From NCBI GenBank assembly GCA_021647885.1, contig JAKITV010000007.1, forward strand, positions 16,758 to 80,757: a stretch of 64,000 nt of DNA, in the 5' to 3' direction. A program made the position numbers and the translations under genes. Below, piece by piece: positions 35,993 through 45,153 of the stretch. How positions within the stretch are numbered: position 1 is the stretch's first letter; each line of letters begins with the position of its first letter. The notes under the pieces were generated by a model. That model saw only the letters and a list, made by a program, of their open reading frames with translations. It was not told the origin of the DNA and ran no database searches. The DNA comes from Flavobacteriaceae bacterium. GTDB taxonomy: Bacteria; Bacteroidota; Bacteroidia; Flavobacteriales; Flavobacteriaceae.

Positions 35993-36030
35993 CACTTAAT
36001 TTTTAATAAATAATTAAACCAAAATAAATC

Positions 36031-37665
36031 ATGGCAACAGGATTTTATAATGTACCAAAAGCAGTTAACGAACCTGTAAAATCGTATGCACCAAACAGTC
36101 CAGAACGCAATGAGTTACTAGCAACTTATAAAAAAATGTATAACGAAACTGTTGACATTCCTTTTTATATTAATGGTAAAGAAATAAGAACAGGTAATAC
36201 TGTTTCCATTCATCCTCCTCATGACCATAAGCATACCGTTGGCAATTATCATTTAGCAGAAAAAGAACATATAGAAGATGCTGTAACTACTGCAATGGAC
36301 GCAAGGAAAAAATGGGCTGCAACACCTTGGCAAGATCGTGCTGCTATATTTTTAAAGTGTGCCGAATTATTAGCAGGTCCTTACAGAGCAAGAATGAATG
36401 CTGCCACAATGATTGCACAATCTAAAAATGTATTTCAAGCCGAAATTGATGCTGCTTGTGAATTGATAGATTTCTTTAGGTTTAATGTTGAATTTATGAC
36501 CGAAATCTATGCAAATCAACCTATTTCTTCTCCAGGAATTTGGAACCGAATGGAATACCGAGCTTTAGAAGGTTTTGTATATGCCATAACGCCATTTAAC
36601 TTTACATCAATCGCTGCAAATTTACCAGCAGCCCCAGCAATGATGGGCAATGTGGTTGTTTGGAAACCTGCACGTACGCAAGTATATTCGGCTCAAATAA
36701 TTATGGATTTGTTTAAAGAAGCAGGACTGCCTGATGGAGTAATTAATATGGTTACCGGAAACTCTGCGATGATTACCGAAGTATTGTTGGACAGCAAGCA
36801 TTTTTCAGGGATTCACTTTACAGGATCTACTGGAGTTTTTAATAGTTTTTGGGAACAGATTGGAAGAAATGTAAATCAGGGAAAATACATTTCATATCCA
36901 AGAATTGTTGGAGAAACAGGTGGCAAGGATTTTGTTTGGATGCATCCTTCGGCTGATGCAAAACAAGTAGCAACAGCATTAACACGTGGATCGTTTGAAT
37001 ATCAAGGACAAAAATGTTCGGCAGCATCTAGAGCTTACATTCCTAAAAGCAAATGGAATGCCGTTAAAAAATATTTACAAGCCGATTTACAATCGATGAA
37101 AATGGGTAATCCTGATGATACTTCAAATTTTATCAATGCTGTAATAGATGATCGTGCTTTTGATAAATTATCCAAATATATCGACAATGCCAAAAACGAT
37201 GCAGATGCTGAAATTATAGCTGGTGGAAATTATGATAATTCCATAGGCTACTTTATTGAACCAACAGTTATTTTAGCTAAAGATCCAAAATATGCAACAA
37301 TGTGTACCGAACTTTTTGGGCCAATCTTAACTATTTATGTTTATGAAGATGAAGCTTGGGAAGACACATTAACTTTGGTTGATGAAACCTCTCCTTACGC
37401 CTTAACAGGAGCTATTTTTAGTGCAGACCGTTATGTCATTGATATTGCCACAAACGCATTAGAAAATGCTGCGGGTAACTTTTATATTAACGACAAACCA
37501 ACAGGAGCTGTTGTTGGGCAACAACCATTTGGTGGAGCAAGAGGCTCAGGAACTAATGATAAAGCAGGTTCGGTATGGAACTTATTGCGTTGGGTTTCTA
37601 ACCGAACCATTAAAGAAACATTTGTGCCAGCAACAGATTATCGTTATCCGTTTTTGGAAGAGTAA
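36031..37665 (+). CDS. pruA: L-glutamate gamma-semialdehyde (delta-1-pyrroline-5-carboxylate) dehydrogenase
   Basis: IVGETGGKDFVWMHPSAD, RGSFEYQGQKCSAASR, QQPFGGARGSGTNDKAG. Confidence 0.96.
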   Translation: MATGFYNVPKAVNEPVKSYAPNSPERNELLATYKKMYNETVDIPFYINGKEIRTGNTVSIHPPHDHKHTVGNYHLAEKEHIEDAVTTAMDARKKWAATPWQDRAAIFLKCAELLAGPYRARMNAATMIAQSKNVFQAEIDAACELIDFFRFNVEFMTEIYANQPISSPGIWNRMEYRALEGFVYAITPFNFTSIAANLPAAPAMMGNVVVWKPARTQVYSAQIIMDLFKEAGLPDGVINMVTGNSAMITEVLLDSKHFSGIHFTGSTGVFNSFWEQIGRNVNQGKYISYPRIVGETGGKDFVWMHPSADAKQVATALTRGSFEYQGQKCSAASRAYIPKSKWNAVKKYLQADLQSMKMGNPDDTSNFINAVIDDRAFDKLSKYIDNAKNDADAEIIAGGNYDNSIGYFIEPTVILAKDPKYATMCTELFGPILTIYVYEDEAWEDTLTLVDETSPYALTGAIFSADRYVIDIATNALENAAGNFYINDKPTGAVVGQQPFGGARGSGTNDKAGSVWNLLRWVSNRTIKETFVPATDYRYPFLEE

Positions 37666-37691
37666 GAAATGTCATTTATATAATAGATTTT

Positions 37692-37726
37692 AACCTGTCT
37701 TTGTCTTAAAGATAGGTTTTTTTATT
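37692..37726 (+). terminator. Intrinsic terminator-like hairpin after pruA
   Basis: AACCTGTCTTTgtctTAAAGATAGGTTTTTTTA. Confidence 0.8.
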
Positions 37727-37892
37727 GATACATATAGGTTGTCTTTCTAATAAAAAAACCGCTACTTTCGTTTATCGAACGATATAGTTTATCCTGTGCT
37801 CAGCTAGATTGAGTATAAAACAGAACCATATCTTATCCATTAGGTTTCATGCGAAAAAAATCCCGAACCATGTATTTATTATTCTATATTTT

Positions 37893-38531
37893 TCAAACTC
37901 TATTACACAGCATCCATCCAAAAACGGATGTCAGTGTAATTACATAAATAACAAGTACATAAATCCATTTTCCTCCAAATTTAAGAGTTGGTATTGAAGA
38001 TAAGTTTAATGCTGACAGAAGCATTAAGATGACATAAATAAGTATTGAAAAAGTGGAATGCTCGAAGAAACGTTCAAATAAAAAGATAAAAGCCAGAATA
38101 AGCACATTATTATCAAGTGCCAGTCCCTTATATGTTTTACTGTCGATAAGGCCATAAATATTAAAGTAACTCAAACGGATAGCACTTGTAGCAATAATTA
38201 CAAAAGTTCCGGGTATAAACCATACATTATAATTTCCGTAGCTTAAAAGTATTAATGCAGGTAAAACTCCAAAACTTACAATATCAATCATTGAATCAAG
38301 TTGAGCTCCAAAAACACCTTGTGTTTTTGTCCTGCCTTTTAATTTTCGGGCAATAATCCCATCGTACCAATCGAACAGAACTGCCCAAAGTACTCCAATT
38401 ATTGCAGCCGGAAAATTTCCTTCTATTGCAAAGTAAATTCCTAATACAGCACTCAATAATCCTACTAAAGAACAAATATTTGGTAAATCTTTGGCAAAAG
38501 CAAGCATGCCGGGCTGCTGTTTGTCGTTCAT
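37893..38531 (-). CDS. CDP-alcohol phosphatidyltransferase family protein (PssA-like)
   Basis: DWYDGIIARKLKGRTKTQGVFGAQLDSMIDIVSFGVLPA. Confidence 0.9.
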   Translation of the reverse strand: MNDKQQPGMLAFAKDLPNICSLVGLLSAVLGIYFAIEGNFPAAIIGVLWAVLFDWYDGIIARKLKGRTKTQGVFGAQLDSMIDIVSFGVLPALILLSYGNYNVWFIPGTFVIIATSAIRLSYFNIYGLIDSKTYKGLALDNNVLILAFIFLFERFFEHSTFSILIYVILMLLSALNLSSIPTLKFGGKWIYVLVIYVITLTSVFGWMLCNRV

Positions 38532-38532
38532 G

Positions 38533-39666
38533 CTATTCGTGCTTTAAATACATAACATTTTTTAATGCTTCAATAAGTTTACTGTTTTCCTCATTGGTGC
38601 GACTTGCAATTCGAATATAGCGGTCGGCATCGGGTTGTGTTTTTCCAACACTATCTTTTATATAAATATTGTATTCAATAAAAAGGCGTTTTGTTACTTC
38701 CGGTCCGCTTAAGGCAGCATCGGGCAAACGACAAAAAATATAGTTTGCATCAGGTTTAAACACAGTCATCCCTTCAATCGCTGATAGCTTTTCACAGAAA
38801 ATATCCCTGTCTGATTTGACCCGTTCGCAGCTATCTTCAAATTCCTGTTTATACAGAGGCAAGATACGCAGAAATTCTTCGGCAAATCCATTGATATTCC
38901 AAATATGAATTTCATTTCGAACTTTTACTGCAAATTTCAGGTTAGCTGTTAGTAAATATCCAATTCTAAGTCCGCAAATTCCATAAGCTTTACTCATGCT
39001 TTTAAGAATAGCCATATTTGAGTATTTATCAATATCTTGCTCTAGTGTAATATTTTCTTTATTGTTGGCAAAATCAAGAAAAGATTCATCGATAATAAGC
39101 ATGCAATTATGCTTTTCCAGCTTTTGTGCAAGTCGAATTAAATCGGCTTTCGGCACCAACATCGACGTAGGGTTATTGGGTGTTACCACAACCGCCATGT
39201 CGGCTTTCGCTTTAATGGCTTCGGCAGCAAATTTATCTACATCCAGTTGAAAGGATGGAAAATCGAGCGGAAATTCAATTACATTTCCTTTAGGCGCTGC
39301 ATTTGCATATTCGTTAAATGAAGGTACCGGAACAATTATTTTTTTTGCTAAATGACCTGATAGTATTTTTATAATTTCAGCCGCACCATTTCCAACAACA
39401 ATTCTTTCGTTTGGCTGCTCTATTATTTCACCAATTAGCTCGGCAAGTGCATCTTGAGCCATAGGGTAATTCAAAACTAAGTTCTGAATGTTCTCTTTTA
39501 GGTGTGTAAATACCGCTTTAGGTGGAAAATAGAGATTGTATAAATAGGCATGGTCGGTAAAATTATACCGATAATAGCCGCCGTGTTGTTTTGATATATA
39601 TTCGTATTTCTCAGTTTGTGTTTTATACTTACTTACCATCCTATATTTATTTGAATCACTATGCAC
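38533..39666 (-). CDS. PLP-dependent aminotransferase/decarboxylase, fold type I (HisC/CobD-like; GTG start)
   Basis: VVTPNNPTSMLVPK, DESFLDF, AILKSMSKAYGICGLRIGYL. Confidence 0.9.
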   Translation of the reverse strand: MHSDSNKYRMVSKYKTQTEKYEYISKQHGGYYRYNFTDHAYLYNLYFPPKAVFTHLKENIQNLVLNYPMAQDALAELIGEIIEQPNERIVVGNGAAEIIKILSGHLAKKIIVPVPSFNEYANAAPKGNVIEFPLDFPSFQLDVDKFAAEAIKAKADMAVVVTPNNPTSMLVPKADLIRLAQKLEKHNCMLIIDESFLDFANNKENITLEQDIDKYSNMAILKSMSKAYGICGLRIGYLLTANLKFAVKVRNEIHIWNINGFAEEFLRILPLYKQEFEDSCERVKSDRDIFCEKLSAIEGMTVFKPDANYIFCRLPDAALSGPEVTKRLFIEYNIYIKDSVGKTQPDADRYIRIASRTNEENSKLIEALKNVMYLKHE

Positions 39667-40456
39667 AAGTCTTTTCTAACTTAAGCTCTATTTTCGATTC
39701 TACCGGGAAAAGTTTTTCTGCTTCGGCTAAATCATTTATAGTATCAATCTCGTACCACGGTTTTTGGTCGAATGAAACCGATTCAAACGACAGACTTTTA
39801 TCGGCAACCATTTCAGTAAAAACAGTTTCGTAGTAACAGTTAATGCTACCCACAGAAATATAGTAGTCTAACTTCTTAACAACTGCTTGCCATGATGAAA
39901 GCGAGAAGCTGTAAATATTAACAGTTTTATAACGAATATCAGTATATGTTTCGGTTGTTCCTTTATGGAACTCAGTTATCTGGTTTTGCCTATTAACAGA
40001 AACAGTAGTTCCATTTAACCAGGGTTCCATTTTAGCAACAGCTATTTTATCAGGAAAAACCATCTCATCGAGTAGAGATGTGTTTAAAACTAAATCGCTT
40101 TCAAGCAGAACAAAAGGTTCATTAATAATATTGCGAGCTATCCAAAGCGAATAAATGTTGTTAGTTGTGCGGTATAAAGGACTATGAATGTACTCAATGC
40201 TTAAGCCTCCTGAATTACTACCCAGAAAATCCATAATACATTCACTTTTATAGCCGGTAACAATTACAAGACGTTTAAACCCTTGTTTTTTCAAGTTATT
40301 GACAAGTCGCTCAAGAATTGACTTTTCATTTACAAGGGTTAGGCATTTGGGAGAATTTTTTGTTAAAGGGAAAAGACGAATACCCGTACCTGCCGCAAGA
40401 AGTAATGCAGTGGAAATACGATTGTCACCATAATAATTATCTGAATTAATATACAT
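39659..40456 (-). CDS. NTP transferase domain protein, LicC/PntC-like cytidylyltransferase
   Basis: ALLLAAGTGIRLFPLTKNSPKCLTLVNEKSILERL; YRTTNNIYSLWIARN. Confidence 0.88.
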   Translation of the reverse strand: MYINSDNYYGDNRISTALLLAAGTGIRLFPLTKNSPKCLTLVNEKSILERLVNNLKKQGFKRLVIVTGYKSECIMDFLGSNSGGLSIEYIHSPLYRTTNNIYSLWIARNIINEPFVLLESDLVLNTSLLDEMVFPDKIAVAKMEPWLNGTTVSVNRQNQITEFHKGTTETYTDIRYKTVNIYSFSLSSWQAVVKKLDYYISVGSINCYYETVFTEMVADKSLSFESVSFDQKPWYEIDTINDLAEAEKLFPVESKIELKLEKTCA

Positions 40457-40924
40457 ACTTTATTCAATTGGTGTCATCAAAAAAAACGTAAATGCTCGAT
40501 TAAAAGCTTTTAGGCGTACTAAATATTAATACTTTGATGGGTGGACTTATTACTGATAACTCAACTATAAGTATAAAGTTTGCGAATGCGATGAAAGATT
40601 GCTTAAAAAAGCACATCAACAAAAATGATAGTGAATATTTGATATCGAAAGATAAGGAATCCTTGCGCAAAGGTACTCTAATAATTCAGATTAACTAATG
40701 TTTATATTTTAGTACTTTTATCGAAATAATACAAACACATGATAAAAGCATAATTTGAATGACAATAATTTGAAAAAAAACACGAAAACCTAACAATGTA
40801 AATAAAAAAATAAGCGAGATAGTAGTAGCATCATGGCTTGTAGCCCGTTTCACCTTTCTTGTACGCAGAAAGATTTGTCCTTCGAAATCGCTTGATTTTC
40901 ATAGACTCACCGATAAACGAAACT

Positions 40925-42280
40925 TCAAAACATTAACTCCTTGACCTCCTCAAAATCCAAGCCTCCATAATTACCAGAACTCATAAGCAACAAAGCTTTA
41001 TTATTAAAATCCTGCGAGAATAAAAATTCTTTAAAATCGTCTGGATTAGTATAAATAATTAAATCATCCCTATCAAAAGCAGAAGCTATTTGTTCTTTAG
41101 TAACTTCTTCCAGTTTTTTGATTTCTACAGCATGAGGCGAATAAAATACCACAGCAACATCTGCTGCATCTAAAGCACCTTTGTATTCTTTTAAAAATTT
41201 AGCATTTAAACTACTATAGGTATGTAACTCTAAACAGGCAATCAATGTTCTGTCCTTATATTGTTCCTTTACTGCATTTGTGGTTGCTTCTACCTTACTT
41301 GGCGAATGTGCAAAATCTTTATAAGCAACACTGTTTTTACTTTCAACAATTTTTTCTAAACGTTTGTTTGCGCCTTTAAAAGTAACGATAGCTTCATAAA
41401 AATCGTCTTCGTCAATTCCCATATGTTGGCAAATCCATTTGGCTCCAGCGAGATTGTTTAGATTGTGTTTTCCAAAAACTTCAATTGGTAATAACCCTTC
41501 TGGAGTTTCTAATAGAGTTTCTCCATTAACCACTTCGTATTCAGGAGTATGATATGGCAATTTACGTATTGTGTTTTCTGAAGCTTCAACCACGCGCTTA
41601 ACTTCTAAATCTTCTTCGTTATACGTTATGCTTCCACCTTTTACAATAGAGTCTATAAAAATGCTGAATTGTTCTACATAGCCTTCATAAGTTGGAAACA
41701 CATTAATATGATCCCATGCAATTCCGCTTAACAAGGCAATATTGGGTTTGTATAAATGAAATTTTGGTCTTCTATCTATTGGAGAACTTAAATATTCGTC
41801 GCCTTCCAACACCATAAAATCGTTGTCTTTAGTAAGTTTTACCATAACATCAAAACCATCTAATTGTGCACCAACCATATAATCGACATCACGATTATGA
41901 TAATGCATGACATGAAGAATCATAGATGTAATTGTAGTTTTACCATGGCTTCCACCAATTACAACTCTTGTCTTGTGTTTGGATTGTTCGTATAAAAACT
42001 CTGGATACGAATATATTTTTAAATCTAATTCTTGCGCTTTTAATAATTCTGGATTATCTGTTTTGGCATGCATTCCTAAAACAACCGCATCTAAATTTTG
42101 TGTTATCTTTTCAGGAAACCAACCAAAGGTTTCTGGCAATAACCCTTTTGCTTCTAAACGAGATTTTGAAGGCTCAAAAATCGTATCATCACTTCCTGTG
42201 ACTTTATATCCTTTATTATGTAATGCAATAGCAAGATTGTGCATGGCACTTCCACCAATGGCTATAAAATGTACATTCAT
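40925..42280 (-). CDS. mpl: UDP-N-acetylmuramate:L-alanyl-gamma-D-glutamyl-meso-diaminopimelate ligase (Mpl)
   Basis: HFIAIGGSAMHNLAIALHNKGYKVTGSDD; GGSHGKTTITSMILHVM. Confidence 0.93.
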   Translation of the reverse strand: MNVHFIAIGGSAMHNLAIALHNKGYKVTGSDDTIFEPSKSRLEAKGLLPETFGWFPEKITQNLDAVVLGMHAKTDNPELLKAQELDLKIYSYPEFLYEQSKHKTRVVIGGSHGKTTITSMILHVMHYHNRDVDYMVGAQLDGFDVMVKLTKDNDFMVLEGDEYLSSPIDRRPKFHLYKPNIALLSGIAWDHINVFPTYEGYVEQFSIFIDSIVKGGSITYNEEDLEVKRVVEASENTIRKLPYHTPEYEVVNGETLLETPEGLLPIEVFGKHNLNNLAGAKWICQHMGIDEDDFYEAIVTFKGANKRLEKIVESKNSVAYKDFAHSPSKVEATTNAVKEQYKDRTLIACLELHTYSSLNAKFLKEYKGALDAADVAVVFYSPHAVEIKKLEEVTKEQIASAFDRDDLIIYTNPDDFKEFLFSQDFNNKALLLMSSGNYGGLDFEEVKELMF

Positions 42281-42342
42281 TTGTTTGTAATGTGAATGGT
42301 AAATATAAGTATTGATTTGCTAAACTAAATGCAATGACATTT

Positions 42343-42876
42343 CTACTTATTTTCTGGAGGATACTTGATAAGCACTTTTTCTACAATAGCTTTCATCGTT
42401 GCTTCCCTCTTTTCTGGCGATGCTTTAGGATTATAACTGCTTTCGCTAACAGCTTGCCAAAATAATCCGCCTTTATTTTCATCTATAAAATCTATATTGA
42501 TGCGCCTATTGATATTAGATTGTCCAATTGGGATTCCTAAAGAAAGTCCTCCTCCAACATTATGTCCTCCTCCACCCAAACCAACTCCAACTGTATTACG
42601 TTGGTTGTTTTGATATTCGCTACTTTGAATATTTATAAAAAAATCTGGCGTTTCAGAAAGTATAAGTCCTTTAGATTGCAAATTAGCATCAATAGCAGCC
42701 AATAAACGTTTGGTGTCGAATTCATTCATACCAGTTTCTATATCCCGATAATAGTTATAGGTTTTATACTTGCTGAAGTCTGTTGTTTTTTCGTAATCGT
42801 AATTTACCCTGATTGAAGCACATGACGAAACTAAAAAAACTAATAAGATGATTTTAAGTGATTTCATAACTAACAA
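42343..42876 (-). CDS. DUF4136 family putative lipoprotein
   Basis: VSSCASIRVNYDYEKTTDFSKYKTYNY. Confidence 0.85.
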   Translation of the reverse strand: MLVMKSLKIILLVFLVSSCASIRVNYDYEKTTDFSKYKTYNYYRDIETGMNEFDTKRLLAAIDANLQSKGLILSETPDFFINIQSSEYQNNQRNTVGVGLGGGGHNVGGGLSLGIPIGQSNINRRINIDFIDENKGGLFWQAVSESSYNPKASPEKREATMKAIVEKVLIKYPPENK

Positions 42877-42932
42877 TTTTTTATAAAGTTAATCAAAAAT
42901 CATTCATTTAATAGTTCATAAGAAGATTTACA

Positions 42933-43931
42933 CTAATTATTCAACATTTTCCACAACTTATCTTTAAGTTCGGTAATGCCTTGTTGGGCTATCGAAGAAA
43001 TAAAAATATAATCTATAGGAAGTGAATTATCGAGTTCGATTTTAAGTTCTGCTTTAAGCTCATCGTCTAACAAGTCACATTTTGTAATAGCAATCAACCT
43101 GTCTTTATCCAGCATTTCAGGATTGTAACGACGTAATTCATCTAACAAAATATCGTACTGCTTTTTAATATCGTTAACATCTGCAGGGATTAAAAACAGT
43201 AAGGTCGAATTACGTTCTATATGACGTAAAAAATAGTGTCCAAGTCCTTTGCCTTCGGCTGCTCCTTCTATAATCCCAGGAATATCTGCCATTACAAAGG
43301 TTTGAAAATCGCGATATTTTACAATACCCAAATTGGGTTTTAAAGTGGTAAATTCGTAATCGGCAATTTTTGGTTTTGCTGAAGTTATTACAGATAAAAG
43401 TGTCGATTTTCCAGCATTGGGAAATCCAACCAATCCAACATCTGCCAACACTTTAAGCTCTAAAGTAATTCGTTTTTCCTCATGCGGAATTCCAGGTTGT
43501 GCATATCGAGGCGTTTGGTTTGTTGAGCTTTTAAAATGCCAATTGCCACGCCCTCCCATTCCTCCTTCACAAACTATTTTTTCTTCGTTCTCTTCGGTAA
43601 TTTCAAAAATGATTTCGTTGGTTTCTGTATCTCTAATTACAGTTCCTAAAGGTACATCTATATAAACATCTGTTCCATCTGCTCCTGTACTTCTTCCTTT
43701 GCTGCCATGACTGCCATGTTCGGCTTTAATATGGCGTTTAAATTTAAGATGCAATAATGTCCAGAGATTTTTTTTACCTCTAATTATAACATGACCACCA
43801 CGACCACCATCTCCACCATCTGGTCCTCCTTTGGTAATATATTTTTCACGATGTAAATGCACAGAGCCTTTACCTCCATTTCCAGAAGTAGCTACTATTT
43901 TTACATAATCTACAAAATTACCTTCGGTCAT
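42933..43931 (-). CDS. obgE: GTPase Obg
   Basis: [54 protein letters not shown]. Confidence 0.97.
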
Positions 43932-44043: not shown

Positions 44044-45153
44044 CTATAACGAATCTATTACTTTGCTCAAACGCTCAGCAATTTCTTGAATGCTACCTAC
44101 ACCATCTACACCAAAATATTTGTCTTGGCTAGAATAGTAATCTTTTAAAATAGCTGTTTTTGTATAATATTCTTTAATTCTATTTCTAATAATAGATTCG
44201 TTTGCATCGTCTGGTCTTCCACTGGTTTTTCCTCTTTTAAGTAAACGCTCTACTAACACTTCGTCATCTACTTCTAAAGCAATCATTGCATTTATATTAG
44301 AATCTTTAGTTTCCATGAGTTTATCTAAAGCTTCCGCTTGTGCATTAGTACGCGGAAATCCATCAAAAATAAAACCTTGAGCATCTGCATTTCTATCTAC
44401 TTCTGCATTAAGCATTTTTATGGTAACCTCATCTGGCACTAAATCGCCTTTATCCATATACGATTTAGCTAAAGTACCAAGTGCTGTTTCATTTTTTATA
44501 TTATAGCGAAATACATCTCCTGTGGAAATATGAACCAAATTATATTTATCCTTTAAAAATTCTGCTTGTGTACCTTTTCCTGCTCCTGGAGGTCCAAACA
44601 AAACTATATTTGTCATCTTTTGTGTGGTACAAATTTGATATACTTCTGGAATATCTCTACCTAAACCATTATAATCCAAACCGTAACCAACGATAAACTT
44701 TTTAGGGATTTCAATACCTTTATAATGAATTTTAAAATCTTTCTTATAAGCTTCTGGTTTATAAAAAAGCGTTGCTATTTTAAGTGCTTTTACGCCTTCA
44801 TTCTTAAATATTCTATGTATTTCATGTAGTGTATTTCCTGTATCGATAATATCTTCTAAAATCACTACTGTTCTTCCGGATAAATCTTGTGTAAGACCAA
44901 TTAATCGTTGAATATCTTCGGTAGATTTTACGCCTTCATAAGACGCTAATTTTATAAAAGTGACCTCGCATGGTTTAGGATACTTCTTTACAAAATCGCT
45001 TACTACCATAAAAGATCCATTTAAAATACCTATAAATACAGGTATTTCGTCACCAATATCTTTTGAGATTTCGTTCGCTAGTTTTGAAATTGCAGCATCA
45101 ATTTCTTGTGCAGATATAAATGGTTTAAAATATTTATCATGAAGTTTAATCAT
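44044..45153 (-). CDS. adk: Fusion: hypoxanthine phosphoribosyltransferase plus adenylate kinase
   Basis: N-terminal VVILEDIIDTGNTLHEI (PRPP loop); C-terminal MTNIVLFGPPGAGKGTQAEF ... FDGFPRTNAQAEAL. Confidence 0.95.
   Translation of the reverse strand: MIKLHDKYFKPFISAQEIDAAISKLANEISKDIGDEIPVFIGILNGSFMVVSDFVKKYPKPCEVTFIKLASYEGVKSTEDIQRLIGLTQDLSGRTVVILEDIIDTGNTLHEIHRIFKNEGVKALKIATLFYKPEAYKKDFKIHYKGIEIPKKFIVGYGLDYNGLGRDIPEVYQICTTQKMTNIVLFGPPGAGKGTQAEFLKDKYNLVHISTGDVFRYNIKNETALGTLAKSYMDKGDLVPDEVTIKMLNAEVDRNADAQGFIFDGFPRTNAQAEALDKLMETKDSNINAMIALEVDDEVLVERLLKRGKTSGRPDDANESIIRNRIKEYYTKTAILKDYYSSQDKYFGVDGVGSIQEIAERLSKVIDSL

Follow-up and report, generated by a model that had tools for sequence, protein, structure and literature searches.

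Three closely packed genes on the minus strand of a Flavobacteriaceae contig, coding for a nucleotidyltransferase (NT), a PLP enzyme (PLP) and a CDP-alcohol phosphatidyltransferase (PT), raise the question of which compound such a set would produce. The genes lie in a stretch of 64,000 nucleotides of contig JAKITV010000007.1 (the window), which belongs to an assembly of 2.59 Mb in 67 contigs with an estimated completeness of 87%. The best explanation, to which a probability of about 0.6 is assigned from sequence comparison, is that the three genes constitute one transferable pathway that would turn phosphoserine into CDP-ethanolamine and attach phosphoethanolamine to lipid.

Organization and composition of the locus

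The NT gene (39659..40456, minus strand) is a 265-aa ORF of the LicC/PntC cytidylyltransferase class with a match to PF00483, and is followed by PLP (38533..39666, minus strand), a 377-aa ORF with a GTG start and a match to PF00155, assigned to the FrbH-type decarboxylases of CobD/HisC fold, and by PT (37893..38531, minus strand), a 212-aa ORF that matches PF01066 and codes for an integral membrane protein. All three Pfam scores were above cut-off, and an ORF check confirmed the layout given in the initial annotation, with an overlap of 8 nt between NT and PLP and a gap of 1 nt between PLP and PT. The PLP start may alternatively be Met10 (39639), since this residue fits several relatives better, in which case the overlap would become a 19-nt gap.

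The flanks, neither of which is assigned to a strand, had been described as long and poor in ORFs, an overstatement given their measured lengths of 468 and 227 bp. The upstream one (40457..40924), without any recognised gene or RNA family, is a spacer between the cassette and a gene called by eye as MurNAc-peptide-ligase-like, and the downstream one (37666..37892) ends at a convergent gene, by eye aldehyde-dehydrogenase-like (36031-37665). An RNA element at the locus was rejected, as the Rfam search of 36000-43000 returned no RNA family. Regarding codon composition, NT and PLP presented the highest GC3 values among the 57 ORFs of the window (0.293 and 0.291, about 2.4-2.5 SD over the mean), so that the claim of GC-rich codons stands for these two genes and is less marked for PT (0.244). 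Elsewhere in the window, a 369-aa minus-strand ORF (44044-45153) was recognised by eye as a hypoxanthine phosphoribosyltransferase fused to an adenylate kinase.

Conservation and distribution of the cassette

Relatives were gathered by searching four NT queries against a set holding a single genome for each of 85,462 species, and the best 80 of 265 loci were fetched. The order NT-PLP-PT was found in 70 of these best 80, and in one more locus (L121) the genes kept this order with three extra genes inserted between PLP and PT; contig ends interrupted seven loci, and the remaining two (L068 and L079) held NT without PLP and PT. Therefore, the triad is not a chance arrangement, since 71 of the 73 relatives with long enough contigs carry all three genes in the same order, which also substantiates the co-occurrence anticipated in the initial annotation. 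The median spacing in relatives was 17.5 nt for NT-PLP and 1 nt for PLP-PT, and the other genes of the neighbourhoods varied freely from locus to locus.

The titles of the host records covered about ten phyla (Bacteroidota, Chlorobiota, Calditrichota, Thermodesulfobacteriota, 'Deltaproteobacteria' shown under Myxococcota, Kiritimatiellota, Planctomycetota, Spirochaetota, Campylobacterota, Actinomycetota and Pseudomonadota), many hosts being metagenome bins, so that single phyla may be misbinned; cultivated bacteria are also among the carriers, such as Labilibaculum sp. K2S, Carboxylicivirga marina, Saccharicrinis aurantiacus and Flavivirga rizhaonensis. In a tree of the joined proteins (66 rows), the window was placed within bins of Bacteroidota and Chlorobiota with a support of 99, apart from the Flavobacteriaceae rows, and this placement, together with the GC3 of the cassette genes, supports the lateral acquisition proposed before. 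Moreover, NT, PLP and PT distances in the same 66-row set correlated with r of 0.81-0.83, as expected if the three proteins travel together. Carriage by phages was rejected, as no NT match was found in 50,697 phage records.

The nucleotidyltransferase and its pocket

The nearest solved structures to NT were LicC (1jyk) and then PntC (6pd1), in agreement with the class originally assigned; with these two ranking first and generic sugar models matching weakly, a sugar-1-phosphate nucleotidyltransferase is disfavoured. The catalytic residues R27, K37 and K177 were invariant in the relatives, and the pocket residues E119 and E210 were invariant in 82 of them. In Treponema denticola PntC, the residues touching the aminoethylphosphonate amine are Glu104 and Glu196, at whose positions LicC presents Asp105 and Asp192 (PMC6697681). 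Glu119 of NT aligned directly with PntC Glu104, and Glu210 aligned with LicC D192, counted by chain numbering, its match to PntC Glu196 being made only via D192. The NT pocket would thus carry Glu at both amine-contact positions, as in PntC, instead of the Asp pair of LicC, and NT is proposed to be a CTP:phosphoserine cytidylyltransferase.

The PLP enzyme and its relation to FrbH

PLP had been described as HisC/CobD-like, and its assignment to HisC was rejected. It scored 142.1 bits against the curated HisC model TIGR01141 (cut-off 276.55) and 180.8 bits against the CobD model TIGR01140 (cut-off 290.55), and the strain has a true hisC at L005, located between hisD-like and hisB-like genes and scoring 357 bits on the HisC model. 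The best structures by both profile and fold were 6oux (the decarboxylase SMUL_1544), 3ftb and CobD, the fold comparison being made with a predicted model of pLDDT 76, weak at the N-terminus. PLP, CobD and SMUL_1544 have in common a W-N-x-N motif, where the HisC of the strain, 23% identical to PLP and lacking W256, has Y. In the PLP tree, whose deeper forks have long branches and only moderate support, the cassette enzymes formed one clade (100/100) among homologues fused to NT or located in PEP-mutase clusters, apart from CobD, SMUL_1544 and HisC. SMUL_1544, a serine-O-phosphate decarboxylase of norcobamide synthesis, and CobD resemble PLP in fold and in presumed decarboxylation of a phospho-amino acid, but they are only about 30% identical to it and occupy a separate branch, whereas identity to the PLP part of NT-PLP fusions and to enzymes of PEP-mutase clusters is 38-42%. 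A cobamide role was also rejected, because no cobamide genes recurred in the surveyed neighbourhoods of the cassettes. Hence, the decarboxylase type was retained from the earlier description, and by sequence the closest relatives of PLP are decarboxylases of the FrbH type, with CobD and SMUL_1544 more distant.

As 2-amino-4-phosphonobutyrate, the substrate of FrbH, is the CH2-for-O isostere of phosphoserine, the FrbH product would correspond to CDP-ethanolamine. FrbH, a cytidylyltransferase-decarboxylase fusion of the FR-900098 pathway, cytidylylates this substrate and then decarboxylates the product (PMC8976061). The cassette would be analogous in combining NT with a PLP decarboxylase on a serine-phosphate-like substrate, and it has an N-terminal GGY(W/Y) motif in common with FrbH-type homologues. 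FrbH, however, is one fused polypeptide accompanied by phosphonate genes, whereas in the window and its relatives NT and PLP are separate genes, joined by PT and by no phosphonate gene, and the substrate is presumably a phosphate ester. FrbH itself was compared by description, via fused homologues, its connection to the cassette being drawn from the architecture and from the surroundings of a Priestia NT-PLP fusion, which adjoins DXR and AAC(3) genes. The stretch read of that plasmid (pBM700; L141, 841-8945) contained, besides the fusion, genes of the AAC(3) family and for DXR as well as two ATP-grasp genes, and resembles an FR-900098-related cluster, no PEP mutase being annotated in it.

Plasmid records provided full-length PLP homologues with 33-42% identity, many of them fused to an NT domain. 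For example, a CDP-alcohol PT lies 1 nt downstream of the fusion in Erwinia and Rahnella and overlaps it in A. vitis; other fusions were found in Sinorhizobium, M. mediterraneum, Fusobacterium and Gloeothece, the last one adjoining a methyltransferase and LicD.

The phosphatidyltransferase

The assignment of PT to the CDP-alcohol phosphatidyltransferases was corroborated by PF01066, by its fold and by the motif D54..D57G..A61R..G75...D79...D83, which follows the superfamily pattern D..DG..A(R)...G...D...D. Its nearest structure, fold included, was a phosphatidylserine synthase. Against the PssA model TIGR00473 it scored 75.2 (cut-off 107), but this test is a weak one, as the presumed PssA of the strain also fell short, with 100.1; the PT tree was too weakly supported for use. 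It is proposed that PT moves phosphoethanolamine onto a lipid hydroxyl.

Proposed pathway

In the proposed pathway, NT would join O-phospho-L-serine and CTP into CDP-serine, PLP would decarboxylate CDP-serine to CDP-ethanolamine and CO2, and PT would transfer the headgroup from CDP-ethanolamine to a lipid hydroxyl at the membrane, yielding lipid phosphoethanolamine and CMP. The reverse order, with phosphoserine decarboxylated to phosphoethanolamine before cytidylylation, is possible and was the one originally suggested; the enzyme classes of that suggestion were retained and the order was revised to NT first, since PLP belongs with the FrbH type, which makes cytidylylation before decarboxylation likelier, and a sister two-gene cassette described below points the same way.

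Phosphoserine is an ordinary intermediate of serine synthesis. With ordinary metabolites as inputs, apart from the lipid acceptor, and no kinase needed, three genes would suffice and could move between phyla; in fact, the neighbourhood survey found no kinase alongside the triad. The eukaryotic Kennedy (CDP-ethanolamine) pathway and the LicA-LicC routes are alike in using a CDP-amino-alcohol donor and a CDP-alcohol phosphotransferase, but they depend on a kinase acting on free ethanolamine or choline, whereas the cassette headgroup would be decarboxylated phosphoserine. The PssA/Psd route to phosphatidylethanolamine (PE) is alike in taking serine as headgroup source and in including a decarboxylation; there, however, decarboxylation takes place on the lipid and the lipid carries CDP, whereas in the cassette it would occur on a soluble compound and the headgroup would carry CDP. 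Three observations count against the pathway: the enzyme nearest to PT, phosphatidylserine synthase, takes CDP-DAG as donor, two loci hold NT without the other genes, and PE made by the cassette looks redundant given Psd.

Alternative substrates and acceptors

A route to PE alone does not explain the function, as the strain already carries CdsA-like, PssA-like and Psd genes. Psd was present in 30 of 31 cassette genomes, so that the cassette may use a lipid acceptor other than plain diacylglycerol; with PE makeable without the cassette, the latter may serve another acceptor or condition. The donor could accordingly be as proposed and the acceptor mainly a non-glycerolipid, such as a ceramide, a glycolipid, a polyprenol or a surface glycan, a reading that can be compatible with the best explanation and is less likely than not. 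The frequency of Psd speaks for it, as do the LicD or ATP-grasp ligase genes adjoining some cassettes and the location of the Fusobacterium NT-PLP fusion within a surface-glycan-like locus; the neighbourhood survey, in turn, found no common acceptor-synthesis gene nearby.

Another phospho-amino acid could enter the pathway, for instance phosphothreonine, which would lead via CDP-1-amino-2-propanol to an aminopropanol-bearing lipid. CobD, a fold relative of PLP, acts on phosphothreonine, and CDP-threonine has been proposed for the flagellar glycan of C. difficile (PMC10714395); phosphothreonine would, however, need a threonine kinase or phosphotransferase, none of which was found by the triad in the neighbourhood survey, and the FrbH substrate matches phosphoserine, which leaves this substrate rather unlikely. 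That PLP is an aminotransferase, converting, e.g., dihydroxyacetone phosphate into serinol phosphate for a serinol or similar headgroup, would agree with the fold it has in common with HisC and with the sub-threshold matches to both the CobD and HisC models, but both sequence and tree put it with decarboxylases and HisC is distant and lacks W256, making this very unlikely. An aminophosphonate version, from phosphonoalanine via CMP-2-aminoethylphosphonate to a phosphonolipid, does seem to exist on rhizobial plasmids, where homologous NT, PT and PLP genes are joined to a PEP mutase; PLP homologues in PEP-mutase clusters occurred in M. loti, Rhizobium sp. 007, S. meliloti AK83 and Bradyrhizobium sp. 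187. PntC, PntC-AEPT and these rhizobial PepM-AT-NT-PT-PLP clusters resemble the cassette in using CTP to activate a small primary amine that is then to be transferred to the cell surface, but PntC-AEPT has a class V aminotransferase, whereas the cassette has a CobD-fold decarboxylase and no PEP mutase. None of the cassette flanks contained a PEP mutase, and only 1 of 31 cassette genomes had one over cut-off; the window's genome, with a match of 20 bits, fell below it, in line with the absence reported initially, and for the cassette itself this version is most unlikely. The exception, a Spirochaetaceae bin (G125, the genome of locus L109), was also the sole sampled cassette genome without Psd.

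Novelty and implications

With the three proteins and the fused relatives tested, no curated NCBI model scored high enough to pass its cut-off. In the open-access literature searched, no account of the cassette was found under phosphoserine decarboxylase, CDP-serine or bacterial CDP-ethanolamine routes. A review of bacterial phospholipid pathways assigns CDP-ethanolamine to eukaryotes and PssA/Psd to E. coli (PMC8027125), and CDP-L-serine has been named as a reported prokaryotic compound (PMC10714395). The cassette probably encodes, in bacteria, an equivalent of the Kennedy pathway known from animals and plants. If so, bacteria would have, besides PssA/Psd, another way of making phosphoethanolamine-type headgroups, in which the headgroup is assembled from phosphoserine in solution. 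In at least some hundreds of species, genes that now carry the annotation 'phosphocholine cytidylyltransferase family' or 'histidinol-phosphate aminotransferase' would then receive a function. The cassette would also tie the phosphonate antibiotic chemistry of FrbH to membrane lipids and provide a compact enzyme set for CDP-ethanolamine production.

A sister two-gene cassette

In two congeners, an NT relative about 55% identical to that of the window was found with a distinct CDP-alcohol PT and without PLP (L042, 1634-3089, in G001; L043, 320-1774, in G002). In G001 only, this pair occupies the same locus as the window cassette, downstream of the same ligase-like gene, and a close PLP orthologue was absent from both genomes (best E-values of 1e-20 in G001 and 1e-14 in G002). 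Within the class, a sample of 242 genomes contained 7 with such a pair (L158-L164). The NTs of both cassettes agreed at every presumed active-site position, and only three columns separated them cleanly. If both kinds of NT do have one and the same pocket, they would be expected to use one substrate, which favours phosphoserine over phosphoethanolamine; alternatively, phosphoethanolamine could be supplied to the sister cassette from elsewhere. It can be suggested, only tentatively, that these are two exchangeable cassettes around one CTP:phosphoserine cytidylyltransferase, the three-gene version decarboxylating CDP-serine and putting ethanolamine phosphate on lipid, the two-gene version putting serine phosphate on it. 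Both would assemble the donor of the headgroup in soluble form and so invert the logic of PssA/Psd.

Accessory genes

Genes accompanying some cassettes hint at further modification. An ATP-grasp gene lies downstream of PT in nine loci (L090, L091, L096, L098, L099, L105, L116 as a fragment, L117 and L121); it resembles the amino-acid ligases LdmS, BesA and MfnD, all far below cut-off, and could aminoacylate the headgroup. In eight loci (L056, L081, L094, L095, L100, L104, L106 and L110), from both Bacteroidota and Desulfobacterota-type bins, a calcineurin-like phosphoesterase (metallophosphoesterase) adjoins the cassette on the opposite strand. The insertion between PLP and PT in L121 (7462-10415) comprises a class III aminotransferase, a 2-hydroxyacid dehydrogenase and a LicD-family gene, and a second LicD relative was found in L100 (1-427), which brings LicD to two loci overall.
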